This document shows positions 775-53,859 of a stretch of 64,000 bases of DNA, in pieces. The position numbers and the translations under genes were made by a program. Origin of the DNA: an uncultured Carboxylicivirga sp. (GTDB lineage: Bacteria > Bacteroidota > Bacteroidia > Bacteroidales > Marinilabiliaceae); NCBI GenBank assembly GCA_947503525.1, contig CANNEA010000004.1, forward strand, positions 496,001 through 560,000. The letters are read 5' to 3'. The notes under the pieces are model-generated. The model ran no database searches, was not told where the DNA came from, and saw nothing but the letters and a program-made list of their open reading frames with translations. Each line of letters starts with the position of its first letter. The stretch's first letter is position 1.

Positions 775-846
775 TTATAACCCACCAAAATTAACAAAAA
801 GGTGGGAATATTAAGAGCTTGAAGGCTAATTCTATTGATAGAGATT

Positions 847-1866
847 ATGGGTACGATTATTTTAGGAATAGAATCATCATGTGATGATACCTCCGCTGCA
901 GTTTTTAATGATGAAGTTATACTATCTAATTGCGTTGCAAATCAACATGTTCATGAGGCATATGGAGGCGTAGTACCTGAACTTGCTTCGCGTGCTCATC
1001 AACAAAATATTATTCCGGTAGTTGAAAAGGCAATTAATGATGCAGGCATAGACAAATCTGAAATAAATGCTGTGGCATTTACCAGAGGCCCTGGATTAAT
1101 GGGTTCATTATTGGTTGGTACATCTTTTGCAAAAGGTTTTGCTTTGGCTAATGAATTACCCTTAATTGAAGTTAACCATTTGCATGCACATGTTTTAGCT
1201 CACTTTATCAAAGAAGATGTGGACGATCAGGATCAACCTGAATTTCCTTTCCTATGTCTACTTGTCTCAGGTGGAAACAGCCAAATTATTAAAGTTAAAA
1301 GTCATCTTGAAATGGAGATAATTGGGCAAACCATTGATGATGCTGCCGGCGAAGCCTTTGATAAATGCGCTAAGGTTATGGGCTTACCATATCCCGGAGG
1401 ACCTCTAATTGATAAACTTGCTACTGAAGGTAACGAAGATGCCTTTACATTTAGTAAACCTCGGATTGCTGAATACAACTATAGTTTCAGTGGACTCAAA
1501 ACCTCGTTTTTATATTTTCTTCGTGATCAATTAAAGATAAACCCAAATTTCATAGAAGAAAATAAAGTAGACATATGTGCATCTCTGCAGAAGACAATTA
1601 TTGACATTTTAATGGACAAATTAGTAACGGCTGCTAAAGATACTGGCATTAAGCAAATTGCTCTTGCGGGAGGCGTTTCAGCTAATTCGGGTTTAAGACA
1701 GCGACTCAATGATTTAGGAAAATTAAATAATTGGGTAACTTATATACCAAAGTTCTCGTACACAACCGACAATGCGGCAATGATAGCTATCAACGGATAC
1801 TATAAATTTCTAAAAAACGAGTTTGTGGGTCAGGAAACTACACCATTTGCTCGATTAGAATTTTAA
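847..1866 (+). CDS. tsaD: tRNA N6-threonylcarbamoyladenosine transferase TsaD
   Basis: TsaD (Gcp/Kae1/YgjD) transfers the threonylcarbamoyl group to A37 of tRNAs that read ANN codons, together with TsaB and TsaE, in the cytoplasm. The protein begins with the family hallmark ILGIESSCDDTSAA and has the metal-binding HLHAHVLAH motif, the GGNSQI phosphate loop and the late ALAGGVSANS motif. Length of about 339 residues is normal. An upstream in-frame TTG at 835 would add four residues, but ATG at 847 gives the usual TsaD N-terminus and is preferred. TsaB and TsaE are not in this window. Essential housekeeping gene; call very sure. Confidence 0.96.
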   Translation: MGTIILGIESSCDDTSAAVFNDEVILSNCVANQHVHEAYGGVVPELASRAHQQNIIPVVEKAINDAGIDKSEINAVAFTRGPGLMGSLLVGTSFAKGFALANELPLIEVNHLHAHVLAHFIKEDVDDQDQPEFPFLCLLVSGGNSQIIKVKSHLEMEIIGQTIDDAAGEAFDKCAKVMGLPYPGGPLIDKLATEGNEDAFTFSKPRIAEYNYSFSGLKTSFLYFLRDQLKINPNFIEENKVDICASLQKTIIDILMDKLVTAAKDTGIKQIALAGGVSANSGLRQRLNDLGKLNNWVTYIPKFSYTTDNAAMIAINGYYKFLKNEFVGQETTPFARLEF

Positions 1867-1967: not shown

Positions 1968-1975
1968 TATTTTTG
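1968..1975 (+). promoter_or_regulatory. Bacteroidota-type promoter -7 element for the PqqD/peptide cassette
   Basis: TATTTTTG matches the Bacteroidota -7 consensus TAnnTTTG and lies 19 bases before the GTG start at 1995. It implies a very short leader. No clear -33 TTG at ideal spacing was seen. The position supports a transcript beginning with the PqqD-like gene rather than read-through from tsaD. Confidence 0.5.
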
Positions 1976-1994
1976 CAGCAGAATTATTTAATTA

Positions 1995-2279
1995 GTGGGG
2001 GAATTACTGTACAAGAAAGCATCAGGATTTGTGGAGAAACGAATGGGTAATGAATTGGTGATTGTACCAATGGTTGCAGCCGTGGCACAGATGGACAAGG
2101 TGTTTTCTTTAAATGAAATTGGATCACTAATATATGATTTTTTGAATGAACCTAAATCTGAAAAAGAGATTTTAAATAAAGTAATTATCGAGTTTGAAGT
2201 TTCTGAAAGAATAGCTAAACAGGATATAAAGAGCTTCCTTAATGAATCCATTAAGGCAAAAGTAATAGAAACTGTTTAG
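1995..2279 (+). CDS. PqqD-family peptide-recognition protein (RRE-like)
   Basis: 94 residues with the size and pattern of PqqD-like proteins. These are small winged-helix RiPP recognition elements that bind the leader of a precursor peptide and present it to modifying enzymes. Seen: an N-terminal beta-hairpin region (residues 10-35, KRMGNELVIVP then an aliphatic run), the 'FSLNEIGSLIYDFL' helix typical of PqqD (compare V-x-L-N-E-x-A-x-x-I-W in the family), and a C-terminal pair of helices. The GTG start at 1995 follows a promoter-like element; ATG at 2043 is a possible shorter start but would remove the first strand. It is the first gene of a five-gene cassette with a small peptide gene 8 bases downstream, which fits a role as peptide chaperone. 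The exact partner is inferred from context. Confidence 0.75.
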   Translation: MGELLYKKASGFVEKRMGNELVIVPMVAAVAQMDKVFSLNEIGSLIYDFLNEPKSEKEILNKVIIEFEVSERIAKQDIKSFLNESIKAKVIETV

Positions 2280-2287
2280 TCAGGAAA

Positions 2288-2512
2288 ATGATTACAATGG
2301 GAATTAGAAAAAAATATATAAGTCCAAAAATAGAAATTCATCGTATCGATCAGGAGATATGTCTGGTTATGGAATCTCCACCGGTTGATCCAGGAGGAGG
2401 AGGCGATCCATGGGATCCCGCTGCAGCACCAGCATCAACACCTGAATATCCAAGCACTTTAAGTGATGATTCACCATTTGGTGGCAGCACTCCTGATTAT
2501 GACAATATGTAA
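2288..2512 (+). CDS. Small Pro/Asp/Gly-rich peptide, candidate RiPP precursor
   Basis: 74 residues. The N-terminal part (1-29) is basic and amphipathic (RKKYISPKIEIHRIDQEIC) and looks like a leader. From residue 30 it changes to a low-complexity tail of Pro, Asp, Gly, Ser and Thr with a GGGG run at 36-39 and single Trp, Phe and Tyr residues, ending DYDNM. An AGGA box lies just before ATG 2288; ATG 2297 is the alternative. It sits between a PqqD-like gene and an HprK-related kinase, so a ribosomally made, modified peptide is the simplest reading. The tail is rich in Ser/Thr that a kinase could use and has one Cys (residue 25) only in the leader. Similar small 'MKKKY-x-x-P' peptides are common in Bacteroidota, mostly without known function. 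It could also be a small secreted or structural peptide. Function is inference. Confidence 0.6.
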   Translation: MITMGIRKKYISPKIEIHRIDQEICLVMESPPVDPGGGGDPWDPAAAPASTPEYPSTLSDDSPFGGSTPDYDNM

Positions 2513-2521
2513 AACATAACA

Positions 2522-3415
2522 TTGGTGACAAAAGCCGATTACAATATAGGGGGCATAGAAATTACAGTTAATTTCTTATGCCCTTTTTTCATTCCTAATA
2601 CTAATTGTGGAAGCAAGAACTTCACAATTGATTCGTTGACTTCCAATGCTTGGACAATTAATATTGATTCAATAGACAGCATTGATTTATCGGCTTATCA
2701 ATTGATGTTCAAAGGAGCACAGGAGTTTGCTGACGAGGTGCCTTATAAATGGAGCCTGTTACAATCATCAAGACATAATCACTGCATACATTTTGAACTT
2801 GAAAACCACTCACACATTAATAGTGGACTTGCTGAAATTGATTACCTAAACAAAACGGTTAGTTTAGGGATTTGTAACAAGTCAAATATTCCTTATTCTC
2901 TGGATCCATTTTTTCACCCCTTTGGAATTCTCCTATTACAATACATAGTGCATCTGGAAAAAGGATTTATACTTCATGCTTCTGCCATTGCTTATAAAAA
3001 GAAAGGATTCTTATTCACAGCAATCTCCGGAACAGGTAAAACCACAATGGCTAAACTGTGGCAATCCAAAGGGGCAAGCATCATAAATGATGATCGAATC
3101 ATAGTTCGACCTGAAAACAACACCCAGATAATTAGCAATACACCAATGCCTTATTATAATGATTATAATAAAAGTGTTGAGTTAGCTAAACTATTTATCA
3201 TTAAACAATCGCCTACTAATTATATTAAACCATTAAGTACATTACAGGGTACCCTTGCAATATTAGGAAACTGTATGCAATATCAATTTGATGAAACGCA
3301 GGTAAAGGAACGACTTGATTATATCGAACAAGCGGTAACTAAATGTAGTGTATTTGAAATAGGTTTCAAACCTGACACTTCTATTGTGGATCTAATTTTA
3401 GAAAATTTTGGATAA
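2522..3415 (+). CDS. HPr kinase/phosphorylase-related (HprK-like) kinase
   Basis: 297 residues. The C-terminal half carries the HprK fold: the LHASAIA motif at 151-157, a P-loop SGTGKTT at 169-175 and NDDRIIV at 189-195, which match the 'H-A-S', Walker A and 'N-D-D' elements of HprK-like proteins in peptide-biosynthesis clusters. The N-terminal 140 residues are not recognisable. True HPr kinases act on PTS HPr; relatives in lasso-peptide clusters phosphorylate the precursor peptide, and no HPr or PTS gene is nearby. The gene starts 9 bases after the peptide gene, at TTG 2522 or GTG 2525, and overlaps the next gene by 8 bases, so translational coupling is likely. The substrate may be the 2288-2512 peptide (inference). 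Confidence 0.78.
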   Translation: MVTKADYNIGGIEITVNFLCPFFIPNTNCGSKNFTIDSLTSNAWTINIDSIDSIDLSAYQLMFKGAQEFADEVPYKWSLLQSSRHNHCIHFELENHSHINSGLAEIDYLNKTVSLGICNKSNIPYSLDPFFHPFGILLLQYIVHLEKGFILHASAIAYKKKGFLFTAISGTGKTTMAKLWQSKGASIINDDRIIVRPENNTQIISNTPMPYYNDYNKSVELAKLFIIKQSPTNYIKPLSTLQGTLAILGNCMQYQFDETQVKERLDYIEQAVTKCSVFEIGFKPDTSIVDLILENFG

Positions 3416-3842
3416 ACAAACCATCATAAGCCTGGCAATTGAATTACTTAAAGAAGGCAAAACAACAAAGATCGTTGCCAACGGAATAAGTATGTTCCCC
3501 TTGCTACACCCTGGTGATATACTAACGATACAACCGACCCAAGAAATAACAATAGGGGATATCGTTGTATTTAAAGCCGAAACTTCTCTTATAGCTCATC
3601 GGGTGGTAAAAATATTCGATAACAAGATTTATTGTAAAGGTGATAGTCTTTTTTCAGTTGATAAACCATTCTTACTTAATGAGACTTTAGGAAAGGTAAT
3701 AGAAAGGCAACGTGATGGAAAAACAATTAAGAATACTAGTTTAAGCCACCGTCTATTCGCAAAAATCATTCCTTATACCGGAAAATATCCTTCTCTACTC
3801 TTTAGGTGGTGGGCTATTCTATGGTTAAAGCTGCGTAAGTAA
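3408..3842 (+). CDS. S24/S26-type signal-peptidase-like protease
   Basis: 144 residues with signal peptidase I signatures: GISMFP at 26-31 with nucleophile Ser28, GDIL at 36-39, GDIVVF at 50-55, AHRVV at 63-67 and KGDS at 77-80. The second catalytic position appears to be His64, as in SipW and ER-type signal peptidases, rather than the Lys of bacterial LepB. There is no N-terminal membrane anchor, so it may act in the cytoplasm or be held by the aromatic C-terminus (FRWWAILW). It starts at TTG 3408 inside the end of the kinase gene. In this cassette a leader-cleaving protease is needed, and this is the only candidate. Family call good, role inferred. Confidence 0.75.
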   Translation: MDKQTIISLAIELLKEGKTTKIVANGISMFPLLHPGDILTIQPTQEITIGDIVVFKAETSLIAHRVVKIFDNKIYCKGDSLFSVDKPFLLNETLGKVIERQRDGKTIKNTSLSHRLFAKIIPYTGKYPSLLFRWWAILWLKLRK

Positions 3843-3857
3843 ATATGCTTTAACCAT
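3821..3857. repeat. Perfect 11-bp inverted repeat after the peptidase gene
   Basis: ATGGTTAAAGC (3821-3831) and GCTTTAACCAT (3847-3857) are exact reverse complements with a 15-base loop. The left arm is in the last codons of the S26-type gene. No strong U-tract follows directly (GCGGCTAAAATTTT), so it may be an attenuator or an RNA-stability element between the peptide genes and the ABC exporter rather than a clean terminator. Confidence 0.5.
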
Positions 3858-3906
3858 GCGGCTAAAATTTTATTATTAATTTAGTCATTGAATTTTTGCA
3901 TACCCT

Positions 3907-5697
3907 ATGATATTCGGAACAACATTTAATTTAAAATATATTCGACAAACACTGAAATTGGTTTATCAAAGTTCCCCTAAATGGACTTTAATCAATTCTG
4001 TTGTTACCATAATCCGAGGTTTCATACCATTATTACTTTTAATTGTTGTAAAACAATTGGTTGATATTGTAGGAGATTCCTCCCAGGAATTACATAGCAT
4101 TGATAAACAAGAAGTGATCTTTACACTTACATTGGTTGGAATATTCTTTCTACTAAATGCCATAAGTGGCTCTATAAACAATCTTGTACGTGAAAGACAA
4201 TCGCATTTTGTAAATGACTTCATCCAAAAACTAATCCATCATAAGACCGTACGACTGCCTTACAAATATTTTGAAGATTCAACATATCAAGATTTATTCT
4301 TTCGAGCAATAAACGAGGCCAACTATAGGCCTTCAAAAATATTTTATGGGATACTTGGCTTAATACAAAGCCTAATCACTTTATCCATTGTATTAGTAGT
4401 TCTTACAACCTTTCATTGGGGCATCGTTCCCGTACTCTTTATAGCTGCTGTACCCATTATTATATTTCGTCTTTATTACTCGAGAAAAGAATATGCCATT
4501 AAACAAGAGCATACAGAAGACGAACGGCGAATGCATTATTTTAACCGACTACTTGTAGCTAAAGATTTTGCCAAGGAATTACGAATTTTTAACCTTAGTG
4601 ATACTTTTAAAAATAAATACATTGAAATTCGCGACCAGCTCCGAACCAGACAATGGAAAGTTTCAAAGGCAAAGGCACTATGGGAATCACTTGTGCAAAT
4701 TTTGTCGACTATTGCTATACTGTTTATCTTTTATTTTATCATCTCACAAGCTTTACGAGGTGAAATCAGTACGGGTTCAACAGCAATGTATTTCCTTGCA
4801 CTCCAACGTGGTTATGCCGTCTTACAAGATTTCCTTTCGAAAATGGCATCTTTATTTGAAGACAATCTTTTCTTAAAGAACTTCTTCGAATTCCAACAAA
4901 TAAAACTACCTAAAGAAGGTAATAAACCAGGTCAATTTCCTGTCCCATTAAAAAAACAAATTGAATTTAAATCTATCGAGTTTAAATACCCCAATACAGA
5001 TCGATATGTATTTAAAAACTTAAACTTTAGTATCCCTTCAGGAAAAACGGTTGCCTTAGTTGGTGAAAACGGAAGTGGCAAAACTACTTTAGTTAAAATG
5101 CTGGCCGGTCTTTATCAACCCAGTATGGGTGAAATAAGAATTGACCAAATAAATCTAAATGATATTCATCCAACTGATTTAGCGAAAAACGTAAGTATCA
5201 TTTTTCAGGATTTTATGCTCTATAATGTATCTGCTGATGACAATATTCGCTTTGGAAATGTCGATCGCGTATATAATGAAAACAATATTAAAGAGGCTGC
5301 TGAAAATGCAGGCATAGATGAAGTTTTTAGTAATTTAAAAGATGGTTATAATACGCAGTTAGGCACACTCTTTAAGCATAGCGAAATGCTTAGTAGAGGT
5401 GAATGGCAAAGAACAGCTCTCGCGCGATCATTTTACAATGATGCTCAACTCATAATTCTTGATGAACCAACCAGCTCTCTTGATGCTTACACGGAAGCAA
5501 AACTCATTTCGCATTTCAAAAACATTACACTGGGAAGGACTGCAATTATAGTCAGTCACCGATTAACAACTATTAATCTCGCCGATATTATTGTAGTATT
5601 GAAAGATGGACAAATTGAAGAAATGGGAGCATATGAGGAACTTATAGCGAATGAAGGTGAATTTCATCGCATGGTTCAAAGCTATAAAAACAGCTAG
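3907..5697 (+). CDS. ABC transporter, fused permease and ATPase (peptide/lipid exporter type)
   Basis: 596 residues in the half-transporter layout: a membrane domain with about six hydrophobic segments in residues 25-310, then an ATPase domain. Seen: Walker A GENGSGKTT 386-394, Q-loop around 434 (IIFQDF), a variant signature LSRGEWQ 495-501, Walker B LIILDEP 515-521 and the switch His551. It would work as a homodimer in the inner membrane. It lacks an N-terminal C39 peptidase domain, so leader removal would need a separate protease such as the upstream S26-type protein. The gap of 64 bases to the upstream gene holds a hairpin end and a weak -7-like TGAATTTTTG, so it may have its own promoter. 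Export of the mature peptide is inferred from context. Confidence 0.88.
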   Translation: MIFGTTFNLKYIRQTLKLVYQSSPKWTLINSVVTIIRGFIPLLLLIVVKQLVDIVGDSSQELHSIDKQEVIFTLTLVGIFFLLNAISGSINNLVRERQSHFVNDFIQKLIHHKTVRLPYKYFEDSTYQDLFFRAINEANYRPSKIFYGILGLIQSLITLSIVLVVLTTFHWGIVPVLFIAAVPIIIFRLYYSRKEYAIKQEHTEDERRMHYFNRLLVAKDFAKELRIFNLSDTFKNKYIEIRDQLRTRQWKVSKAKALWESLVQILSTIAILFIFYFIISQALRGEISTGSTAMYFLALQRGYAVLQDFLSKMASLFEDNLFLKNFFEFQQIKLPKEGNKPGQFPVPLKKQIEFKSIEFKYPNTDRYVFKNLNFSIPSGKTVALVGENGSGKTTLVKMLAGLYQPSMGEIRIDQINLNDIHPTDLAKNVSIIFQDFMLYNVSADDNIRFGNVDRVYNENNIKEAAENAGIDEVFSNLKDGYNTQLGTLFKHSEMLSRGEWQRTALARSFYNDAQLIILDEPTSSLDAYTEAKLISHFKNITLGRTAIIVSHRLTTINLADIIVVLKDGQIEEMGAYEELIANEGEFHRMVQSYKNS

Positions 5698-10975: not shown

Positions 10976-12382
10976 ATGGAAGGCATAGATAATTACATAT
11001 CGAGGATCACCAAACTTGCAAACCGCAATAAGGAATTAAATGATCAACTTCAGGGTTGGATGGGATGGTATGAAGACATTCAACGTCAAAACGAAAAATA
11101 CCATAACCTACTGGCTGAATATTCCGACGAAGATATAGAGTCCCAATTGCAAAAAACGCCTACTCGAAAGGTAAAACGTTTTAAAATGGTCTCTGTACTT
11201 TACGCTACTATTGAAGGATTTAGAAATCTCAATGGTCATCCTAAAGCACAGGACTTAGTGGATGCCTTGGATGAAATATATTTAAAATTTGATGAGATTG
11301 CGCAAAAATATGGTGTCTTAAAAATCAAAACTATTGGAGACACATTTCTGCTTGCAGGTGGAATTCTGGAGGAAAACAGGACCAATCCAATAGATGTAAT
11401 CAATACAGCTATCGAGATGCAACAAACGGTTTCCACTTGCATCCTTGATAATACTAAAGAGCCCTTCTGGAGAATAAGTATTGGCATCCATACCGGCCCG
11501 GTTCTGGGTTCGCCTACCGGCAAAAAAAGTATGCCATACAGGCTTACCGGTGAAAGCGTGAATATAGCCTCAAGAATGGGAATGGCTTGCCACCCGGGGA
11601 AAATCAACATTTCCAATATGACCTATGAATTGGTTAAAGAGTTTTTTAGCCTTTCTCAAAGTGGTAAAATACCAGCCAAATACAAAGGCCTGCTGGATAT
11701 GTTTGAAGTAAATGGAATTCTTCCTGAATTATCTGAAAACAGAGAAGGATTAGTAGCTAACCGCAATTTCAATACAAAGTATAATCTTATCCAATTTATG
11801 GATTTGCAAGAGGAAGTATTGGACTTAATGGAGCAAAATTTACCCGCCACACTCTATTACCACAATATTAAACACACCATCGATGTCATTACTGAAGTAG
11901 AGTTGATCGGATGGGCAGAAGGGTTAAACGAAGAAGAGATCTTAGTTCTCAAATTGGCGGCACTTTTCCATGATAGCGGGCATACTCGAGATTATAAGGA
12001 ACATGAGCTGCATGGAACACATATAGCCAGAGAATTTTTAAGCAATTATAATTATCCTGAAGATCAAGTTGAGACGATTTGCAGACTTATCATGTCAACC
12101 AAATTCCCACCTGAGCCCAAAGATTTATTAGAGCAGGTTATTTGTGATTCAGATTTGGACTACCTTGGTCGTAGCGACTTCATTCCCGTATCTAACACTT
12201 TGTATGATGAATTAAAAGATCGTGATATGATCGGATCCATAGATGAATGGAATCAGCTCCAAGTCAACTTCATACGTAAACATCAGTATTTTACTCAAAC
12301 GGCCCAAAACCTTAGAGAAGTAAATAAACAAATCCAAATAGAACGCCTCGAAAAATTGATGGCTGGTGAGACGGCTCAGTAA
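10976..12382 (+). CDS. Class III cyclase-like domain fused to an HD phosphohydrolase domain
   Basis: 468 residues, no membrane segment. A short coiled coil (1-50) leads into a class III nucleotidyl cyclase domain (about 70-245) and an HD domain (about 285-430). In the cyclase part the first metal Asp is replaced by Thr78 (LYATIEGF instead of the usual F-x-D-I-x-x-F) and the base-selecting Asp is Arg189 (YRLTGESVN), while Asp122 (KTIGDTF), Asn196 and Arg200 remain. The HD part keeps HNIKH 296-300, HD 332-333 and DSD 391-393. So the HD domain may be the active part and the cyclase a sensor or a weak enzyme. Such HD domains act on phosphate esters or nucleotides. No clear operon partner. Substrate unknown. 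Confidence 0.82.
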   Translation: MEGIDNYISRITKLANRNKELNDQLQGWMGWYEDIQRQNEKYHNLLAEYSDEDIESQLQKTPTRKVKRFKMVSVLYATIEGFRNLNGHPKAQDLVDALDEIYLKFDEIAQKYGVLKIKTIGDTFLLAGGILEENRTNPIDVINTAIEMQQTVSTCILDNTKEPFWRISIGIHTGPVLGSPTGKKSMPYRLTGESVNIASRMGMACHPGKINISNMTYELVKEFFSLSQSGKIPAKYKGLLDMFEVNGILPELSENREGLVANRNFNTKYNLIQFMDLQEEVLDLMEQNLPATLYYHNIKHTIDVITEVELIGWAEGLNEEEILVLKLAALFHDSGHTRDYKEHELHGTHIAREFLSNYNYPEDQVETICRLIMSTKFPPEPKDLLEQVICDSDLDYLGRSDFIPVSNTLYDELKDRDMIGSIDEWNQLQVNFIRKHQYFTQTAQNLREVNKQIQIERLEKLMAGETAQ

Positions 12383-14448: not shown

Positions 14449-14769
14449 TTATGCACTTTGCATTGTGCGAAAGACTTTATACCAGCTTCCACCATTGTGT
14501 ACATCTTCCAAGCCACTAGACCTTAAAGTATGCATTGCAGAAGCACTTCTACTTCCCGAAGCACAGCAAAGCAAAACCGGACGATTCATCTTCCTTATCT
14601 TTTTTATCGTTGCCGAATTAAACTTATCCAAAGGTATATTGACTGATCCATCTACATTGCCCATTCTAAACTCCTGAGGCGTACGAACATCAATTATTTT
14701 GGCATTACGCTCCAATGCTTCTATTATAATCTTCTTACGCTTTCCAAATAGGTTACTAAATAATCCCAT
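14449..14769 (-). CDS. Single-domain rhodanese
   Basis: 106 residues from the ATG at 14769, chosen because it gives a normal start (MGLFSNLFGKRKK); an upstream start at 14814 would add 15 residues of A/T-rich leader. The rhodanese domain covers nearly the whole protein: KIIDVRTPQEF, GSVNIPLD, and an active loop CCASGSRS with the catalytic Cys, ending in NGGSWYKV. Such proteins carry sulfane sulfur as a persulfide. It follows the multi-rhodanese flavoprotein gene by 52 bases on the same strand and precedes a terminator, so the two form an operon. Cytoplasmic. Confidence 0.88.
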   Translation of the reverse strand: MGLFSNLFGKRKKIIIEALERNAKIIDVRTPQEFRMGNVDGSVNIPLDKFNSATIKKIRKMNRPVLLCCASGSRSASAMHTLRSSGLEDVHNGGSWYKVFRTMQSA

Positions 14770-14821
14770 GTTGTATTTTATTTTTAATAATTTAAACTTC
14801 TTGATTTGTTGCAAACGGATC

Positions 14822-17119
14822 TTAAACGCTAGCCATCATTGATGCAATACCTCCACCGTTTTTCACATTGGTAAAACCACGTTGATTTAATACCTGCTGA
14901 GCATATGCTGATCGTGCACCAGATGCGCAATAGACAATTATTTCGCGATCATGATTTGAACCCAAATCAGCTTTACCTGCCATGATATCATCCAATGGAA
15001 TGTTCACCGCATTTGGAAATGCTCCCGACATAAACTCTCCCGGAGTTCTGACATCAATGACTAACCTTTCAAGCTCTTCCTTCTTTACTTCTTTATTACT
15101 TTCTTCGAAATCTTCAACCGGATAATTAGCCATCATTGAGCTAACTCCACCTCCGTTAGTTACATTCGTATATCCTTTCTGATTCAGGAATTGCTGTGCA
15201 TAAGCAGAACGAGCTCCTGAGGCACAATACACAATTATCTCACGATCTTTGTCTGATCCCAAATCACTTGTTCCTGCCGTAATATCATCGAGTGGTATAT
15301 TAATAGCTCCAGGATAGGCTCCTGTCATAAATTCCCCTTCCGTGCGAACATCAACGACTAATCTTTTCTTTTCATCTGCATTCACATTTTGAGTAGTTTC
15401 TACAGTTTCCTCAACAGATTCCTCAATGCTTTTTTTCTCGATTGGTAATTGCACTACCTGGAAATTTTTATATCCAACTGCCGCTGCATGACGTTGTAAG
15501 GAGGTGTTTCCTCCCGAGATATTATAAACTTCAGTAAAACCAGCACCAATTAATGTACGAAGAGCCTGGTGACCTTTCTTACCTGTTTCATCATAAACCA
15601 ATATTGGTACCTCGCTAGGAATGGATTCCAAATGCTGCGATAACATTTCCAAAGGCAAATGGTGTGCCCCTTTCAGGCTACTTTTCTGAAAAGAAAACAC
15701 ATCTCGAACATCTAAAACAACCAAACGTTTTCCTTCAATAAACTCATCTAACTCGGAAGCCAATAAACTTGGGCTGTACCCTGACATTTTGTTTTCAGCA
15801 GTGTAGGCCGCCATATTCATTGCATCATTTGCCGTACCGATTGGAGGGGAATAGGCAAAATCCATATCTGCTATCTCGCTAACCTTAATTTTGGCAGCTG
15901 CAGCTGTTGCTAATATATCTAATCGTTTATCTGCACCCTTATATCCAGCAGTCTGACCACCAAGCACTACCCCTGTATTTTTATCAAAAACCACCATTAC
16001 ACTTACGGTTTCTGCTCCCGGGTAATAGGATGTATGATGTTCCTTATGAACCACAACTGCATCAGCATCAATCCCAGCTGCCTTGGCTTGTTTTAATGAC
16101 ATACCGGTAATTCCTGCTACTGCCTCAAAAACTCGAACTACAGAGGTTCCTACAGAGCCTTTATAAGCATGCTGTCCTCCCAAGGCATTCTCAGCCGCAA
16201 TACGCCCTTGACGGTTAGCCGGACCAGCTAAAGGAATACGTACTTTCTTACCGCTTACTCTATGCTCTATCTCAACCATATCACCACCTGCATAGATATC
16301 AGCATCTGAAGTCTGCAAATATTCATTTACCAATAAACCACCGGCTTCGCCTATTTTTAATCCGGCATCAATAGCTAATTGAAGAGTTGGTCTAACCCCC
16401 ACGGATAATAATACCATATCAGCATCTAATGTTTCACCATTATCTAATTCAACTGAATTTTTACCAATTGAAGTAACAGCAGCCTCAGTATGAACTCCTA
16501 CACCATATGATAGCAACTCACGAGTTACGAACCCAGCTGTTTCAGCATCCATTAATGACATTACATGAGGCATTTTTTCTACTACATGAACCTTAAGTCC
16601 TCGCTTAACCAATGCCTCAACCATTTCTAATCCAATAAATCCACCACCTACAACAACAGCTGTTTTTGGATCATTATTAGTAACATGGTTATCAATCTTG
16701 TCCATGTCATCTAATGTCCAAAGACTAAATACATGGTCGTCTTGTGCTCCCGGTAGATTAGGCTGAATTGGTCGCCCTCCTTGTGCAAGTATAAGTTTGG
16801 TATATGTAAATTCCTTATTCGATCCATCACGTGTATCTTTTGTATAAACCACATGTGTGTCCTTATTGATTGATTCAACCAATGTATTAATATGTACATC
16901 AACATTGTACTGCTCCTTGAAACTCTCAGGGCTTTGAAGTATAAGCTTCGAACGACTTTCAATATCTCCGGCTATGTAATAAGGTAAACCACAATTGGCA
17001 AATGAAACATCCGGTCCAGCCTCTAACATTGTAATTTCAGCATCCGGTGATAAACGTCGGGCTTTAGCAGCCGCTGTTGCTCCTGCAGCAACCCCTCCGA
17101 TAATAAGTATCTTTTCCAT
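14822..17119 (-). CDS. CoA-disulfide-reductase-like flavoprotein with three rhodanese domains
   Basis: 765 residues. The first 450 are a pyridine-nucleotide disulfide oxidoreductase: FAD motif GGVAAGA 8-14, redox Cys43 in FANCGLP (the single active Cys of CoA-disulfide and CoA-persulfide reductases), NAD-binding GGGFIGLE 158-165 and AGGDM 277-281. Three rhodanese domains follow at about 453-550, 585-665 and 685-763. The first has Asp510 where the sulfur-carrying Cys should be (VYDETG). The second and third have Cys632 and Cys731 in near-identical CASGARSAYAQQ loops and look like a recent internal duplication. One-rhodanese versions are known (NSR/CoADR-Rhd); three are unusual. Probably handles polysulfide or persulfide sulfur with CoA and NAD(P)H in the cytoplasm. 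Divergent from a Crp/Fnr regulator. Confidence 0.88.
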   Translation of the reverse strand: MEKILIIGGVAAGATAAAKARRLSPDAEITMLEAGPDVSFANCGLPYYIAGDIESRSKLILQSPESFKEQYNVDVHINTLVESINKDTHVVYTKDTRDGSNKEFTYTKLILAQGGRPIQPNLPGAQDDHVFSLWTLDDMDKIDNHVTNNDPKTAVVVGGGFIGLEMVEALVKRGLKVHVVEKMPHVMSLMDAETAGFVTRELLSYGVGVHTEAAVTSIGKNSVELDNGETLDADMVLLSVGVRPTLQLAIDAGLKIGEAGGLLVNEYLQTSDADIYAGGDMVEIEHRVSGKKVRIPLAGPANRQGRIAAENALGGQHAYKGSVGTSVVRVFEAVAGITGMSLKQAKAAGIDADAVVVHKEHHTSYYPGAETVSVMVVFDKNTGVVLGGQTAGYKGADKRLDILATAAAAKIKVSEIADMDFAYSPPIGTANDAMNMAAYTAENKMSGYSPSLLASELDEFIEGKRLVVLDVRDVFSFQKSSLKGAHHLPLEMLSQHLESIPSEVPILVYDETGKKGHQALRTLIGAGFTEVYNISGGNTSLQRHAAAVGYKNFQVVQLPIEKKSIEESVEETVETTQNVNADEKKRLVVDVRTEGEFMTGAYPGAINIPLDDITAGTSDLGSDKDREIIVYCASGARSAYAQQFLNQKGYTNVTNGGGVSSMMANYPVEDFEESNKEVKKEELERLVIDVRTPGEFMSGAFPNAVNIPLDDIMAGKADLGSNHDREIIVYCASGARSAYAQQVLNQRGFTNVKNGGGIASMMASV

Positions 17120-32825: not shown

Positions 32826-35114
32826 TTACTTAACAGCATTAGAGCTCATCTCGAACACCAGTTCTCCTCCTTTAACAATTTCCTGATGATTAATATAATT
32901 TCTATCCAATAACACTCCATTTAAGCGAACGGATTGTACAATAAAGTTAGTTTCACTTAAACCATTTGCTTTAATTGTAAACATCTTTCCATTAGGCAAA
33001 TGAATAACAGCCTCTTCTACCTGTGGGGCACCAATAATATATTCTCCTCCACACGGGTTAACCGGATAAAAACCAAGTGACGAAAACATATACCAGGCTG
33101 ACATTTGACCGCAGTCATCATTTCCCATCAAACCATCTGGACTATTATTGTAATAATCGTCAACCAAAATTTTGATTATCCTGTCTGTTTTATGCCCTTC
33201 ATTGGTATACTTATATAAATACGGAATGTGGTGACAAGGTTCGTTGCCATGCCAATACTGCCCCATTGTACCATGAATATTCCAAACCAAAGTTTTAACT
33301 TCAGGTTTAGATGATGAATAAAACATAGAATCTAATTTGATAGCAACAGCCTCTTTACCTCCCATTAAATCAATTAAACCGGGAATATCATGTTGCACAT
33401 GAAACAAGTAATGATATGCGTTACCTTCGGTAAAATCGGAACCCTCAACCCACTCGCCCACAACCTCAGTTGGGTCCACATCAGATTTAAATTCGCCTTT
33501 GGCATTTTTACCTCTCATAAAGCCACTTTGGCTATCGTATACATTTTTGTAATATCCAGCTCTACTATTCAGAAAAATTTGTTCTTTAGTCTTCCCAGGT
33601 TCATAAGCTAAGAGTGATGCACAATAGTCATCATATATGTTTTCAAGTAGCCGTGCCACGGTTTCTCTGCCATCATCAATTTCCGAAAGTTTAACATCAT
33701 AAGGAATGTATCCAAAGGAATCGATTAAGGCAACATGATTGCGATAATGAGGCTTAGATACAGAACTCCAAACGGCCTCATAAACTTCCTTATCACTGTA
33801 TCCAGCTGCTTTTATTCCTTTCAAGTACGCATCTACAAAAACAGGTACTGCATGATTACCTACCATGGTATGCGTTTCATGTCCCCATAATTGCCATCTT
33901 GGCAGATACTTGTTTGCCTCACGGGGATTATCCGGATCAGCTTTCATATGTGTATAACTATCCATCATTGAACTAAGCATAGCACCTACTAAATCGGGAC
34001 TTAAAATGGTATACATCGGATTAGCTGCACGATAGGTGTCCCACAACGACAGAGTAGAATAGTACTTCCCACCGGTTGATTCCTGAACTCCGCTTTGAGC
34101 ACTACGAAATTTCCCATCTACGTCAGCAATGTTATTGGGTTGAATGTATAAATGGTACAAGGATGTATAGAAAGCTTCCTTTTTATTCTCATCGGTGGTT
34201 AATTCTATCAACTTTAGAATATTATTCCATTGAAACTTAGCTGCTGCTCTCACTTTATCAAAAGATTTCCATTCAGGTATCTCAGCTTTCAAATTAGCCT
34301 TTGCTTCATCAATACCAACAGTCGACACAGCAACTAACACCTCCAATTCATTGATATTATTAAAATCAAGTTCATATCTGGGAGCCTCTTCTTCTTTACC
34401 TTCAGGAGCTTCAAGTACCCTTTTTGCAGCAATCTTTTCACTAAATTGTATAACGTAATATAAATCACGATGTGCCCAAACACTAGCCTTACGATAGCCT
34501 GTTAAGGTATAATCGTCTTCGAACTGTTGATTTGCATCGAGCACATTTGTGGAAATAGAGTTAATATCCCATGAAACTCCGTATTGAAGGTCGATTAAAA
34601 GCTTAGCATTTTCATGATGATCAAAAGAATATCGATGATAAGTAACATGTTCAGATGCTGTTAGCTCAACATTAACTTTGTGATCGTTTAGATAAACTCG
34701 ATAATAGCCAGGTGTAGCTTCTTCATTTTCTTTATCATATGTGGAACGATAATTAAATCTTGATGACGGATCAATTTCTTTAGCGCCAAATGGCAACAAC
34801 AATATGTCAGACATTGATGGACAGCCTACTCCATTTAAGTGAGTTTGGGTAAAACCAATGATCCATGGATCATTATACTGGTAACCTGTAACATGATCCA
34901 TTTCGTAACCTTCGTAATACTCGTTGTATGCCTCCGGACTGGCTTGCACCATTCCTAATGGAGCAGTTGCTCCTGGAAAGCAATGCCCTTCATTCTGAGT
35001 CCCTATAAAAGTATTAACATACATAGTGTAATCTTTCACATCTTCTTTTCGTTGCGAACAAGATGCTAGAACAATACAACTAAATATTAATAATATATTG
35101 AATAAGGTTTTCAT
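32826..35114 (-). CDS. GH92 family exo-alpha-mannosidase lipoprotein
   Basis: 762 residues from ATG 35114, which starts a lipoprotein signal (CIVLASC); a longer frame upstream has no such role. The GH92 fold is complete: N-terminal beta-sandwich starting YVNTFIGTQNEGHCFPGATAPLGMVQ, then an alpha-barrel with LSLWDTYRAANPMYTI, acid Glu in TEGNAYHYLF and base Asp residues in GNDDCGQMSAWYMFSSLGFYP. GH92 enzymes are calcium-dependent, inverting exo-mannosidases that trim alpha-1,2/1,3/1,4/1,6 linkages. The short 'standard' length has no extra domains. A hairpin terminator at 35161 separates it partly from the upstream operon. Confidence 0.93.
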   Translation of the reverse strand: MKTLFNILLIFSCIVLASCSQRKEDVKDYTMYVNTFIGTQNEGHCFPGATAPLGMVQASPEAYNEYYEGYEMDHVTGYQYNDPWIIGFTQTHLNGVGCPSMSDILLLPFGAKEIDPSSRFNYRSTYDKENEEATPGYYRVYLNDHKVNVELTASEHVTYHRYSFDHHENAKLLIDLQYGVSWDINSISTNVLDANQQFEDDYTLTGYRKASVWAHRDLYYVIQFSEKIAAKRVLEAPEGKEEEAPRYELDFNNINELEVLVAVSTVGIDEAKANLKAEIPEWKSFDKVRAAAKFQWNNILKLIELTTDENKKEAFYTSLYHLYIQPNNIADVDGKFRSAQSGVQESTGGKYYSTLSLWDTYRAANPMYTILSPDLVGAMLSSMMDSYTHMKADPDNPREANKYLPRWQLWGHETHTMVGNHAVPVFVDAYLKGIKAAGYSDKEVYEAVWSSVSKPHYRNHVALIDSFGYIPYDVKLSEIDDGRETVARLLENIYDDYCASLLAYEPGKTKEQIFLNSRAGYYKNVYDSQSGFMRGKNAKGEFKSDVDPTEVVGEWVEGSDFTEGNAYHYLFHVQHDIPGLIDLMGGKEAVAIKLDSMFYSSSKPEVKTLVWNIHGTMGQYWHGNEPCHHIPYLYKYTNEGHKTDRIIKILVDDYYNNSPDGLMGNDDCGQMSAWYMFSSLGFYPVNPCGGEYIIGAPQVEEAVIHLPNGKMFTIKANGLSETNFIVQSVRLNGVLLDRNYINHQEIVKGGELVFEMSSNAVK

Positions 35115-35160
35115 CAATTTCTTCTGTTTAAAACAAATAGATATTATCCACGCGCACAGT

Positions 35161-35195
35161 AAAAAAGCCCTCAAAATTTAGAACATCGAGAGCTT
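35161..35195 (-). terminator. Terminator-like hairpin after the GHL10-type gene
   Basis: On the minus strand, AAGCTCTC (35188-35195) pairs with GAGGGCTT (35165-35172), eight pairs including one G-U, followed by TTTTTT (35161-35166). It lies 16 bases after the stop of the GHL10-like gene and would reduce read-through into the last GH92 gene. Confidence 0.6.
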
Positions 35196-35210
35196 TAATA
35201 AAATAATAAT

Positions 35211-36293
35211 CTAAAACTCCTGACTTAACTTTTTCATGACTTCCTGCATTTCATCACTCATATTATCTGCCGTAAAAATTGTTACTCCACCAGCACCTTT
35301 TTCTTTAGTTAAACGTATGGCCCTTTCAAGTTCGGCTGCGGTTTCAAATGCAGGTAGAAACAATCCGGCGTTGATTGGAAAATCGACATCATTAACTCCT
35401 TGTTCGGTTGCAAAACCAATCCAGTTGATATTTTCTCTATAAAAATTATGATAAAGCATCGGATAGGCTGCGTCCAGGTTCCAATCATTCCAGGCCTGAC
35501 GAACCATTTGACGCGACATCTCAGGAAAAGGAAAAACAGCAGCTGTCATTTTATGCCCCTCAGAATGGGCGATCTCAACTAATTCATTTACCAAAGTTGT
35601 TACGGCATTTAAACGGTACTGACGCCATTCTGTGCTTAATTCCGGAAACTCCATATCCAGAGGATCTTTGTCAAATATTTTCTTAAATCCCTCACGGGCA
35701 ATTGGATGATAACCATAGTCATATTCCGGCATTTCATGATCCTGAACCAATCCATATTTAGGTTGAAGATCTGCACCAAGGATCACATCAACATATCGCA
35801 CATAATCCAAGTGAATAGATGCCAGGCCTTTTACTTTCGTCAGCTTACGAACATTACTCTTAATGTATTCCCTTGCTTCAGGGTGGTGTGGGCTTAACCA
35901 CTGGTAATAATCAACGTATGCTCTGTATTCCAATGAATTTTTCCCCTTTCGATTAACTGCATACCATTCCGGGTGTTTATTGGCTATGGTATCATTTGGG
36001 CGATTTAAAGTCCACATCCATCCGTGGATTTTCATTTCTCTTTTTTGAGCCAAGGGAACTATTTGGGCCAATACTTCAGGACTAGCTCCAATTAACACTT
36101 CGCTAATTCCCATGTTTAGATAATAATCCAGCTTTTTATTCCAATCTTCTTCAACAAAATTGTTGTCGGAATGTGCCCAGGTGGCAAATACAAAATCCTT
36201 TGGGCTCGATTCTTTCACTTCTGAATTCTGTTCCTGCGAATTTTGACAGGACATCAAGAATAAGGCGATAAACAATACGAATAAATTTCTCAT
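35211..36293 (-). CDS. GHL10/DUF187-type glycoside-hydrolase-like lipoprotein
   Basis: 360 residues from ATG 36293, starting a lipoprotein signal (MRNLFVLFIALFLMSC, Cys16). The body looks like a TIM barrel: NMGISEVLIGAS, KIHGWMWTLNRP, WLSPHHPEAREYIKSNVRKL, then SIHLDYVRYVDV, a motif typical of the 'family 10-like' glycosyl hydrolases (GHL10, DUF187). Putative catalytic acids are the Asp in HLDYVRY and residues near MTAAVFPFPE. Substrate of this group is unknown. It sits 21 bases after a GH92 gene on the same strand, so it probably acts on the same glycan in the periplasm or at the surface. Confidence 0.72.
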   Translation of the reverse strand: MRNLFVLFIALFLMSCQNSQEQNSEVKESSPKDFVFATWAHSDNNFVEEDWNKKLDYYLNMGISEVLIGASPEVLAQIVPLAQKREMKIHGWMWTLNRPNDTIANKHPEWYAVNRKGKNSLEYRAYVDYYQWLSPHHPEAREYIKSNVRKLTKVKGLASIHLDYVRYVDVILGADLQPKYGLVQDHEMPEYDYGYHPIAREGFKKIFDKDPLDMEFPELSTEWRQYRLNAVTTLVNELVEIAHSEGHKMTAAVFPFPEMSRQMVRQAWNDWNLDAAYPMLYHNFYRENINWIGFATEQGVNDVDFPINAGLFLPAFETAAELERAIRLTKEKGAGGVTIFTADNMSDEMQEVMKKLSQEF

Positions 36294-36314
36294 AACAATA
36301 TGTATCAATTAGTT

Positions 36315-39300
36315 TTACTTTATTACTCCCCAACTTTTATTTGGTTCACTTCCCATTTCCAACTCAAGCTTTCCTCCTTTTAGCAATTCTCTTGCTGAAA
36401 ACTTAAAGTCCTGCAAGGTTATACCGTTTAGTTTAGCCGATTGAACGTATTTATTCAATCGAGAAGCATTTTTTGCTTCAATAACGAATTTCTCTCCTCT
36501 GCCAAATCTATTTCCCAGAACAATCTCTACTTTTTCGAATATTGGGCTACCAATTTCATAAACAGGCTCAACGCTGCAGCCTCCACCTGTTTGGAAAAGC
36601 CCCAAAGATGACATAATAAACCATGCGCTCATTTGCCCTTGGTCTTCATCACCTAGGTAGGCGTTAGATACACCGTAACCATAGTAACGGTCTAAAATTG
36701 CGCGACTCCATTTTTGTGTCGACCACGGTTTTTCGACCCAATTAAATAAAAAAGCAAAATGCATACTCTGCTGATTTCCCTGCATAACCGGATAGTTCCA
36801 ATATTGGTCATTTAGTCCATTGAAACGCGTTTTGTCGCTTTCCTCAAATCCCCACTCAAGGCGGTTGATAAAACGATCTTTGCCAATTGCCTGAGCTAAA
36901 GCCGGAACATCCTGCGGTACAAAATAAGTTAATTGCCAGGCATTGCCTTCGACATAATGATGATTAGCACCTGACTTATAAGCATCAAAATCAGGCAACC
37001 ACTCGCCTTTGGCGTCTTTCATACGGGCATATCCGGTTTCTTCGTCTATAATGTTTTTCCAGTAATAACCACGTTTGTTAAATACACGATAATCTTTTTC
37101 TTTGCCTAAGGCCTTCGCAAACTGCCCAACCGTCCAATCATCATATGAATATTCCAGCGAATTAGAGAAACGTCCTTCATCATATGGTACATATCCATGC
37201 TTTAAATATGTTACCAGGTCGCGATTACCAGCAAAACCGCCTCCTACTTCTCGTCCGGGAACAGTCTGCATTTTCTTAACCGCTTCAAATGCTTTATCTA
37301 CATTATAATCTCTAATCCCCATTTGATAGGCTCCAACGATAAGTGGTATTTCATGTTCAGCTACCATCACAGGAATATATTCCATTGCTGCCGGCCCCTT
37401 AGCCAACCAACCACCAGCATCGTACATGGCCAACTGAGATTTAACCCAACGATTGCTCCATTCTGGTGTAACTAAGTTCCAAAACTGATTAAGGTTCCAA
37501 AAGGTATTCCAGAACGCATCACAACCTAATGCCGGTGAACTTGAATCTTCCATTTTACGAACTACCTCATCTGCATCGCGCCATTCACCATTTACATCAC
37601 TAAAAGTATTTCGGCTACAAAGCGAACGGTAATAATTATTGTAGAATCGCATTTTCTCACGTGCATCGTTCGAAGTGATTTTTACACGTATCATTAATTC
37701 ATCCCATGTATCCACATTATTTTGTCGGATAGCTTCAAAATCCCAGGCAAATGGTTTACCTATTTCTGTTTCGAGATTTTCTTTGGCATTTTCAATGCTC
37801 ACATACGAAATCCCGGTGCGCAACTGAACCACATTGTTATTTTTAGTATCAAACTCTACAATGCCTCCAACATCTTTTGCGCCTTTAATGGTAATTTCAT
37901 TAATCTCTTGAACACCTTCTTCCGTCCACACTTTAAACCCAGTGATAGGCTGATCGAACACGGCCACAAAATGCACAATATATTCTTGCTCAATACCGCC
38001 TGCCCATGTGTTCGGACAAATCTGGTGACTGTAGCCTTCAATGGTATTCTCGTCAACCTGTTTAAAATAGGCTTCTATAGATTGATAGGTATATTCATTA
38101 GGAATAACCAGATCTAACAACACCCGCGAGCCTTCTCTATCTTTTGGAAAAGTATAACGTTGAAATCCACAACGGTTAGTTGCTGTTAATTCAGCCTTAA
38201 TATCATAATCCGTTAAATCAACCTTATAATAACCAATTGGTGCTTCTTCTGTTGACTTATCAATTCGCGAACGGTAACCACTATCCACATCTTTTTCATC
38301 GCCAACCAAGGTCTGTAGAGGCCCGTTTGTTGGCATGGTTCCTAATCCGGCAATAGTCCATTCATGAATATGCGAAAAACAGCCCACCGACTCAAAAGTA
38401 GGTTCATACCCCGCTTGCCAGCAATCATTCTGATTATCGGGACTTAACTTAACCATGCTAAACGGCATCCATGGTCCAGGTGCAATCATCCATCGAGAGT
38501 GGCCTGTACCCATTTTAGTATCAATATAAGCAGCTGGTGTAATTTCGTCTTGAGGATTTCTTACTACTTCACCGGAAGCAACTTCTAAACCATCAGCAAA
38601 AATTTTATAATTACTATTAACTTTTTCCTTTACCAAAGGCATAGGAGCTTCAAAAATATATCGTCCCTTTTCAACCCTTTCTTTTAATATTTCCTCTCCA
38701 TCCAACATCACTTTCAAAGTAGGCATTGCTTGCAGATGTTCAACATCCACCAGTAAAGCTTGTGCACCGTTTGTTTGATAATCTGCCGCCTTTACATCTC
38801 GTAAATGCACTTTATCAGCTTCGGATAGAATAGTATTTCCCGGACCTTCAAGTTTTATCTGGTCAAACTTAATCCAGGAGCCTTCTATGGTGGTTAAAAT
38901 TATTTCATTACCTCCTTTTTTAATCAGCCCTGATGGTAAAGGAATCTCGAGTAAATATTCTGAAGAGTCAACCGGGAATTCATCTAGAAGGCAAGTTCCA
39001 TTTATTGCAGGAATTCTATATTTCCAAGCCTTCCCATTAACAATTACCTTAAATAATGGCAAATCGTCGGCATTACAATCGAGAATATCAATGGTAAGTT
39101 TCCATTCACCAGATTTTGGTAATTTATCTACACCAAATAAAACATTTAATGTACTTGACCTCCAGCCTGAAGTTCCCCAAGTACCGCCCCATGTATCGCT
39201 CGTACCGGGAATAATATATGGCCAATCTTTTTTTACATCAAATTTACCAATTAGAAAGTACTTATCTTCCCAACCAAAATCGTTAGCAATGTAGTCCAGA

Positions 39301-39434
39301 TATCCATTACCTGATAAAGCAAATTCAGAACCTGAATTATTGTTCTCTCCAATTTGCCAGATAACAGCACTTTTTTGAGTACAGGATGATATTAATAAAC
39401 CAGTTATAAGTATTAAGAATAAATATTTTTTCAT
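36315..39434 (-). CDS. GH92 family alpha-mannosidase with N-terminal CBM-like domains
   Basis: 1039 residues, lipoprotein signal (LITGLLISSC, Cys18). The first ~205 residues form a domain of the rhamnogalacturonan-lyase type (IWQIGENNNSGSEFAL, then TLNVLFGVDKLP, WKLTIDILDCNADDLP, NEIILTTIEGSWIKFDQIKL), usually a carbohydrate-binding beta-sandwich. A small beta domain follows, and GH92 starts near residue 300 (YIDTKMGTGHSRWMIAPGPWMPF). The catalytic elements are VEGNAWQLTYFVPQDV and GDEDQGQMSAWFIMSSLG; the usual NDD is EDQ here, with Asp kept at the first key place. Much longer than the neighbouring 762-residue GH92. In the operon between the PMI and GHL10-like genes. Confidence 0.9.
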   Translation of the reverse strand: MKKYLFLILITGLLISSCTQKSAVIWQIGENNNSGSEFALSGNGYLDYIANDFGWEDKYFLIGKFDVKKDWPYIIPGTSDTWGGTWGTSGWRSSTLNVLFGVDKLPKSGEWKLTIDILDCNADDLPLFKVIVNGKAWKYRIPAINGTCLLDEFPVDSSEYLLEIPLPSGLIKKGGNEIILTTIEGSWIKFDQIKLEGPGNTILSEADKVHLRDVKAADYQTNGAQALLVDVEHLQAMPTLKVMLDGEEILKERVEKGRYIFEAPMPLVKEKVNSNYKIFADGLEVASGEVVRNPQDEITPAAYIDTKMGTGHSRWMIAPGPWMPFSMVKLSPDNQNDCWQAGYEPTFESVGCFSHIHEWTIAGLGTMPTNGPLQTLVGDEKDVDSGYRSRIDKSTEEAPIGYYKVDLTDYDIKAELTATNRCGFQRYTFPKDREGSRVLLDLVIPNEYTYQSIEAYFKQVDENTIEGYSHQICPNTWAGGIEQEYIVHFVAVFDQPITGFKVWTEEGVQEINEITIKGAKDVGGIVEFDTKNNNVVQLRTGISYVSIENAKENLETEIGKPFAWDFEAIRQNNVDTWDELMIRVKITSNDAREKMRFYNNYYRSLCSRNTFSDVNGEWRDADEVVRKMEDSSSPALGCDAFWNTFWNLNQFWNLVTPEWSNRWVKSQLAMYDAGGWLAKGPAAMEYIPVMVAEHEIPLIVGAYQMGIRDYNVDKAFEAVKKMQTVPGREVGGGFAGNRDLVTYLKHGYVPYDEGRFSNSLEYSYDDWTVGQFAKALGKEKDYRVFNKRGYYWKNIIDEETGYARMKDAKGEWLPDFDAYKSGANHHYVEGNAWQLTYFVPQDVPALAQAIGKDRFINRLEWGFEESDKTRFNGLNDQYWNYPVMQGNQQSMHFAFLFNWVEKPWSTQKWSRAILDRYYGYGVSNAYLGDEDQGQMSAWFIMSSLGLFQTGGGCSVEPVYEIGSPIFEKVEIVLGNRFGRGEKFVIEAKNASRLNKYVQSAKLNGITLQDFKFSARELLKGGKLELEMGSEPNKSWGVIK

Positions 39435-53763: not shown

Positions 53764-53859
53764 ATAACTATATATTATCAGAGGCCTTATGAAACTAACC
53801 ATGATTGAATAATTATTCAATCATGGTTGATTCATATTCACAATTTAGATGCTATTACT

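Follow-up and report, generated by a model that had tools for sequence, protein, structure and literature searches.

A Bacteroidota gene cassette probably devoted to a linear phosphorylated peptide, with unlinked precursor genes beside type IX secretion cargo

The cassette and its inheritance

The stretch of DNA analysed here (the window, 64,000 nucleotides; contig CANNEA010000004.1, positions 496,001 to 560,000) belongs to the 6.56-Mb genome of an uncultured Carboxylicivirga sp. According to the list of open reading frames (ORFs), five genes on the + strand form a compact cassette at 1995-5697. Its parts are those of a maturation system for ribosomally synthesized and post-translationally modified peptides (RiPPs), namely a PqqD-like RiPP recognition element (RRE), a small precursor peptide, an HprK-like kinase, an S26 peptidase and an ATP-binding cassette (ABC) exporter. 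The initial annotation had read these five genes as a RiPP-type cassette with phosphorylation as the likely modification. ORFs and domain searches agree with the gene assignments, and covariation and gene order, described below, support the reading. The system used for comparison is that of the Linear Polyphosphorylated Peptides (LPPs), published in May 2026 in Nat Commun for the lpp cluster of Paenibacillus alginolyticus (PMC13381572). The genes and the predicted sites of the peptide are as follows.

835..1866, + strand: tsaD (PF00814), a syntenic anchor in the family, outside the pathway
1995..2279, + strand: RRE, PqqD-like, LppB/lasso-B1 type, 94 residues; GTG start; PF05402 match
2288..2512, + strand: precursor peptide, 74 residues; ATG start, with a second ATG at 2297 that is possibly the true start; homologues in relatives
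2315..2332, + strand: leader motif YxxPxI (Tyr10 to Ile15), predicted to bind the RRE; matches [Y/W]xxPx[L/V/I/F/A] as given in PMC13381572
2375..2377, + strand: Ser30, predicted phospho-acceptor at Tyr+20, where Ser/Thr is conserved
2471..2512, + strand: conserved core tail SPFGGSTPDYDNM plus stop; [NDSTYE]P[FY] enrichment
2522..3415, + strand: HprK-like peptide kinase, 297 residues; TTG start; conserved catalytic residues and HprK profile match
3408..3842, + strand: S26 leader peptidase of the archaeal/SipW type, 144 residues; TTG start; conserved residues and SEC11 profile matches
3907..5697, + strand: ABC half-exporter, MsbA-like, 596 residues; ATG start; PF00664 and PF00005

The genes are spaced by 8 bp and 9 bp, overlap by 8 bp at the kinase/S26 junction, and are then separated by 64 bp. 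In the Marinilabiliaceae in the broad sense, called the family in what follows, the kinase is present in 69 of 71 genomes, as a single copy except in G024, which has two; it was not found in G023 and in G032, the latter being 72% complete. Of the 30 best-scoring family genomes, 25 carry the same five genes in the same order within about 3.9 kb of DNA, which bears out the conservation of gene order in relatives that had been proposed as a check. The five exceptions are two loci cut by contig ends (L019, L021), two in which the ABC gene lies farther away (L024 and L030, the same loci as L068 and L070) and one that has no S26 or ABC gene (L029). In distant genera the order is looser: L071 and L073-L077 have no S26 and ABC genes beside the kinase, and at L072 the kinase locus is without RRE and peptide, which lie about 29 kb off in the same genome (L150). 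Twenty family stretches of 19 kb were compared (L060-L079), and all but L072, L076 and L077 have a tsaD homologue upstream of the cassette; in most of these 17 the tsaD homologue itself lies behind a divergent large gene, presumably TamB-like. Because the cassette is near-universal in the family and usually lies behind tsaD, its inheritance appears to be mostly vertical; it is a stable gene set of the family and not a stray cluster. Beyond the family but within the same order, the succession of RRE, peptide, kinase, S26 peptidase and exporter is found at L080, L081, L083, L085 and L086, and L082, L092 and L095 have the same gene order with the exporter not nearby.

Enzymes of the cassette

The RRE matches PF05402 over the cut-off (E 7e-10) and the lasso B1 model NF033536 below it (E 2.7e-9). 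Its profile matches in the PDB are TbiB1 (5v1u, 1e-10), PbaB1 (9x90, 5e-10) and LppB (9x8z, 8e-8). Over 27 RRE sequences D77 is invariant and F81 is conserved in at least 90%, with the same spacing as D70 and F74 of LppB, which touch the leader Tyr and Pro according to PMC13381572.

The kinase gives matches below the cut-off to PEPCK_ATP (3e-4) and Hpr_kinase_C (9e-3) in Pfam and to HprK_rel_B (8e-8) in NCBIfam, and a profile match to HprK in the PDB (1jb1, E 1e-4). It misses the curated cut-offs for HPr kinases (PF07475, 16 vs 33.3 bits; TIGR00679, 13.3 vs 240). The HPr-rel-A and HprK_rel_B systems of NCBIfam likewise combine an HprK-like kinase with a PqqD-like protein, but the scores here are far below the cut-offs of those families. 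All 72 kinase sequences compared share H152, S169, G170, G172, K173, T175 and D191, and 71 of them have D190; the counterparts of the motif of BsfK, the kinase of the Bsf phosphorylated lasso peptide, are kept in H152, G170, G172, K173, D190 and D191.

The S26 peptidase matches Peptidase_S24 over the cut-off (2e-7) and archaeal signal peptidase I (TIGR02228) at 1.5e-11 with 44.4 bits, the cut-off being 51.85; its profile matches are SEC11C (4e-11) and SEC11A (5e-11). S28, H64, R65, G78 and D79 are invariant in 62 of 62 sequences, D85 is found in 59, and S28, H64 and D85 match S29, H68 and D93 of LppS by order of residues only. In the exporter, PF00005 and PF00664 are over the cut-off, and the best NCBIfam match is MsbA (TIGR02203, E 6.5e-85, below cut-off). 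Peptidase and exporter are fused into one protein at L094 and L089, which suggests that leader cleavage is coupled to export. Structures predicted from two-row alignments were poor (kinase pLDDT 35, RRE pLDDT 59).

The initial annotation had also stated that the core lasso enzymes B2 and C are absent, together with radical SAM, LanM and YcaO genes. For the B2 protease this holds genome-wide: a search with PF13471 matched nothing in the own genome and gave no match over the cut-off in 70 family genomes (two weak sub-threshold matches), and one control genome scored over the cut-off. For cyclase C and for the radical SAM, LanM and YcaO enzymes the statement extends to the ORFs around the cassette, none of which encodes one, a genome-wide search not having been made. 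As the cassette has no cyclase, its product is presumably linear.

A nucleoside triphosphate (NTP) transferase of the LppN kind occurs within one gene of the set at six loci by clustering (L081, L089, L090, L091, L093, L097), and PF14907 was confirmed in all three loci tested. At L089, L090, L091, L093 and L097, which belong to other families, the kinase and the NTP_transf_5-type gene stand without a local YxxP peptide; among the genomes of these loci, a peptide is found elsewhere in G154, G361 and G205, whereas the search gave none for G107 and G181.

The precursor peptide

The peptide has no family match in Pfam or NCBIfam, where the scans gave no sorting domain either, and no match in the PDB. 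Homologues occupy the interval between RRE and kinase in relatives, and ten pairs from five members of the genus point to purifying selection (pN 0.20-0.37 vs pS 0.51-0.87). Since its place is conserved and it is under purifying selection, the peptide is a real gene. It carries the YxxPxL-type leader motif of lasso peptide precursors. In an alignment of 42 peptide sequences (A1), Tyr10, Pro13 and Asp21 are invariant. Among 83 distinct peptides Tyr is found in 82, and Pro at +3 and Asp at +11 in all 83; the pattern used for placing the peptides demanded Pro at +3 and Asp/Glu at +11, and no peptide failed it. Position +20 was outside this pattern, and there all 83 have a hydroxyl residue (56 Ser, 27 Thr). 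A further 20 peptides also have Ser/Thr at +20 (19 by script, L195 by eye), and five peptides from another class have Ser there by eye. L194 and L195 are without Asp at +11; both come from G124, whose kinase match is weak.

Pro, Ser, Gly and Asp are abundant in the core, which has almost no Cys. Within the last 25 residues the motif [NDSTYE]P[FY] occurs in 66 of the 83 peptides, compared with a mean of 11.6 and a maximum of 24 in 1000 shuffles of the cores; for the other families alone the count is 18 of 30 (shuffle mean 3.6, maximum 10). Ser30 is the best candidate for the phosphosite, because it is the sole hydroxyl residue that is always present and lies near the proven sites at Tyr+18 in LPPs and Tyr+19 in BsfA, offsets counted from the residue numbering in the LPP and Bsf papers.

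Covariation of peptide and kinase

Whether the peptide covaries with the kinase, a check suggested with the initial annotation, was scored in 295 genomes of the order, with the kinase counted at E <= 1e-50 and the peptide at E <= 0.001; weaker matches to the kinase profile (E > 1e-50) were not scored as kinase. The kinase is found in 25 genomes and the peptide in 28. Both occur in 23, the kinase alone in two, the peptide alone in five and neither in 265 (Fisher 3e-27), so that the peptide accompanies the kinase in 23/25 genomes and is found in 5/270 of the others. The seeds of A1 drew on nine kinase genomes besides the family. When these nine and the four family genomes are set aside, the peptide is present in 10 of the remaining 12 kinase genomes, and in eight of these ten non-seed genomes peptide and kinase are on different contigs. 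Thirteen loci with a strong kinase have no local peptide; in 11 of these genomes it is encoded elsewhere, G107 and G181 being the other two. A separate sample of 296 genomes from the phylum agrees: the kinase reaches E <= 1e-50 in the own genome, G383 and G473, and credible peptides occur in the same three, a match in G498 having been discarded for its four internal stops. Weaker kinase matches in G538, G546 and G562 (1.4e-28 to 5e-26) go without a peptide.

Unlinked precursors and type IX secretion cargo

Further precursors are encoded away from the kinase, mostly beside genes for cargo of the type IX secretion system (T9SS). In the own genome a second precursor lies at G000:C1:500822-501001, 34 bp downstream of a gene whose 1371-residue product combines Ig-like repeats with a T9SS type A sorting domain. 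Such cargo genes stand directly 5' of many unlinked precursors; the peptide itself gave no match to a sorting domain. Adjacency was counted where an unlinked peptide lies directly 3' of a same-strand gene with a T9SS sorting domain, and gene pairs in the same stretches served as backgrounds. Kinase-linked copies seeded the peptide searches, and the sorting-domain profile contained no seeds from the unlinked loci of other families or from the second sets. In the family, where 32 stretches were picked by hand from 144 peptide matches (cassette copies included), adjacency was found in 15/20 of a first set (background 4/213) and 10/12 of a second (3/86), together 25/32 against 7/299. In other families 30 unlinked peptides were listed and 28 examined, as two of G287 gave no ORF (stops or overlap); here the counts are 13/20 (background 7/121) and 3/8 (1/45), together 16/28 against 8/166, with adjacency in 10 of the 14 genomes examined. 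Six cases were scored as misses: L161 and L191, where the upstream gene is cargo-like by eye, L155 and L193, where an RRE gene lies between, and L188 and L195 at contig edges. L194 and L195 are weak peptides. The peptides of L066 and L070, which belong to cassette loci, were removed by a gene-overlap filter and enter no adjacency count.

The TIGR04183 scan of adjacent cargo covered the first sets, in other families 12 of the 13 proteins (all but L159); of these 12, 10 exceed the cut-off, L168 is below it and L158 gives no match. In another class, represented by G383 and G473, which are listed only as members of the same phylum, each of the five peptide genes follows a cargo gene at a distance of 32-131 bp. 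All five cargo proteins exceed the TIGR04183 cut-off (44-50 bits), and those long enough to be compared have unrelated N-terminal parts (subtilase, DUF285, GLUG and choice-anchor repeats). A cargo gene also occurs at cassettes of other families, where the gene before the RRE is T9SS cargo in 7 of 18 stretches (L080-L083, L086, L094, L095), with PF18962 over the cut-off at L080, L081, L083 and L086.

Presence of the T9SS itself is uninformative as a covariation partner, as 280 of the 295 genomes sampled from the order have PF18962. The proposal that peptide-adjacent cargo lack a PNP motif (33/36 vs 16/28) was dropped, since the cargo of the other class have the motif. Our search, made partly by title and with subscription papers and bioRxiv-only preprints mostly outside its range, found no open-access paper that treats RiPPs (PqqD/RRE) and type IX secretion jointly; the one paper matching both terms mentions them apart.

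Relation to known phosphorylated peptides

The initial annotation had expected a new kind of product. That expectation did not hold, because linear phosphorylated RiPPs from the same enzyme types have already been published (PMC13381572); they are said there to be restricted to Bacillota, to be patchy there and to have no known role. In lpp the RRE LppB binds YxxP, LppK adds one to four phosphates to Ser3 of the core, and leader removal falls to the SipW-like LppS, which is helped by the RRE and cuts poorly without phosphorylation; without LppK the cleaved peptide is barely detected. The discrete RRE, the HprK-like kinase, the archaeal-type signal peptidase, the MsbA-like exporter, the YxxP leader, a conserved Ser after the leader and a cluster for which no lasso cyclase is described there are common to both systems. 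In contrast to the lpp cluster, the present set is from Bacteroidota, near-universal and syntenic in its family, has no NTP transferase in the cassette, and has precursors with a recurring [NDS]P[FY] tail; LPP precursors are described next to capsule loci, unlinked precursors here lie next to T9SS cargo genes. What is new is thus the Bacteroidota form of a RiPP type known since 2026, with its stable inheritance, and, beyond the initial annotation, the family-wide vertical set and the further unlinked precursors, mostly beside T9SS cargo genes. The adjacency in two classes offers a concrete and testable function for LPP-like peptides, whose role has so far been unknown, and joins the fields of RiPPs and type IX secretion.

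Besides the Bsf peptide, paeninodin and pseudomycoidin are reportedly phosphorylated lasso peptides. These systems share with the cassette a B1-type RRE, an HprK-like kinase acting on the precursor, the YxxP leader and, in Bsf, a Ser3 phosphosite (BsfA Ser3, Tyr+19; PMC10368454). They differ in that an S26 peptidase here replaces B2 and the cassette contains no cyclase.

Proposed pathway and alternatives

From the genes, their order, the catalytic residues, the conservation of the peptide, its covariation with the kinase and the adjacency to T9SS cargo genes, we consider it likely that this is an LPP-like RiPP pathway of Bacteroidota that includes phosphorylation, cleavage, export and a role at the surface. 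The RRE would bind the YxxPxI leader of the 74-residue precursor and present the precursor to the HprK-like kinase, which would add one phosphate or perhaps several to Ser30. The leader would then be removed by the S26 peptidase at about residues 25-28, the cleavage site being uncertain, and the exporter would secrete a linear Pro/Ser/Gly/Asp-rich peptide with a conserved PFGG-type tail. Precursors encoded elsewhere in the genome would be served by the same enzymes in trans. Because most unlinked precursors have a large surface protein secreted by the T9SS as their partner, the cell surface is the probable site of action of the product, together with such proteins.

A more specific version, which we put forward tentatively and think possible rather than probable, is that the phosphopeptide is a dedicated partner of T9SS cargo. 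Many cargo genes would have their own linker peptide, primed near the N-terminus by the single trans-acting set, and the [NDS]P[FY] tail would bind the cargo or the machinery; in some lineages an NTP transferase would perhaps pass the phosphate on to a sugar. If so, the peptide would anchor selected cargo proteins to the surface of the cell or bring about their maturation there.

A number of points weigh against the proposed pathway. The chemistry, the cleavage site, the export, the service in trans and the role with the T9SS are all deduced from genes. Where the LPP leader reads YxxPxVLxHQxIxFETxxS, YxxPx[IVL] is kept here and the HQxIxFETxxS part is replaced by IDxEISLVMx[ST], and the phosphosite at Tyr+18 there compares with a Ser/Thr at Tyr+20 here. 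In the kinase of the window, Ala167 and Thr174 stand in place of Gly163 and Ser170 of BsfK (aligned by eye). None of the ORFs near the cassette encodes an NTP transferase, the search not having extended to the remainder of the genome. The kinase occurs without peptide in G107 and G181, the peptide without a strong kinase in G124, G192, G231, G304 and G358, and nine of the 71 genomes in the family give no peptide match. As to the cargo, adjacency in the family traces largely to a single orthologous locus, and the first 15 family cargo proteins had themselves served as seeds of the sorting-domain profile; with TIGR04183, nine of these are over the cut-off, five are below it and L147 has no match. 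In the genus of the window the cassette peptide has no T9SS gene beside it, and in other families the adjacency is missing for 12 of the 28 unlinked peptides examined.

The last of these points would also suit an explanation in which the RiPP pathway holds and the position next to T9SS cargo genes comes from common mobility or regulation, with no joint action. Cargo genes are numerous, as the frequency of PF18962 in the order illustrates, and because the unlinked peptides of the family represent mostly one conserved locus, there are fewer independent adjacency events than the counts suggest. Against it, the adjacency recurs in most of the other-family genomes examined and is found again in another class with cargo of unrelated N-terminal domains; we regard this explanation as unlikely. 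It is more unlikely still that the peptide is exported unphosphorylated, as a pheromone-like or structural product, and that the kinase has another substrate. The modification is indeed read from the gene content here, and the 13 strong-kinase loci without a local peptide would be in line with a separate role of the kinase, but 11 of these genomes encode the peptide elsewhere, the covariation holds for unlinked peptides as well, and a Ser or Thr always stands at Tyr+20. In the tested relative, moreover, LppK phosphorylates the precursor, with hardly any cleaved peptide in its absence (PMC13381572).

Two ordinary readings of the locus fail. If B2 and C were encoded at another place in the genome, the locus could belong to a lasso peptide system, which would account for the likeness of the RRE to lasso B1 and for the YxxPxI of the leader. 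However, PF13471 is unmatched in the own genome, none of the 70 family genomes searched reaches its cut-off, and the S26 enzyme occupies the slot expected for B2, which makes such a system highly improbable, although for cyclase C only the ORFs around the cassette were covered. We give equally little credence to a classical HPr kinase of carbon regulation that happens to lie beside unrelated genes: the kinase is of the same fold family by sequence, yet it scores far below the HprK and PF07475 cut-offs and recurs with RRE, peptide and peptidase across families.

Other features of the window

1968..1976, + strand: candidate Bacteroidota -7 promoter element TATTTTTGC, a pattern match 18 bp before the start of the RRE gene

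This element was found with what we take to be the -7 consensus. The pattern has 18 matches across the window with 18.5 expected, which is chance level, and the candidate therefore rests on its position. Promoter-like sites number 25, compared with 18.2 (standard deviation 3.6) in shuffles, and were given no weight; terminator-like sites number 4, with 2.2 expected.

Within the cassettes of two other genomes, an ORF of 121 residues, which we take to be endonuclease-like, lies on the opposite strand (L068, 7802-8167; L070, 11597-11962).

Elsewhere in the window, 10976-12382 encodes a 468-residue protein with a class III adenylate/guanylate cyclase domain and a C-terminal HD domain, a cyclase with a possible phosphohydrolase. 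At 14822-17119 a 765-residue protein combines a pyridine nucleotide-disulphide oxidoreductase with three rhodanese-like domains after it, and the adjoining short gene at 14449-14814 is rhodanese-like by eye. Three confirmed GH92 genes, one with a PA14 domain and one with a domain like a carbohydrate-binding module (CBM), lie in 32826-39434 and 48461-51103. A fourth ORF, at 51124-53820, appears similar to these GH92 genes, and the region looks like a mannan-type utilisation locus.

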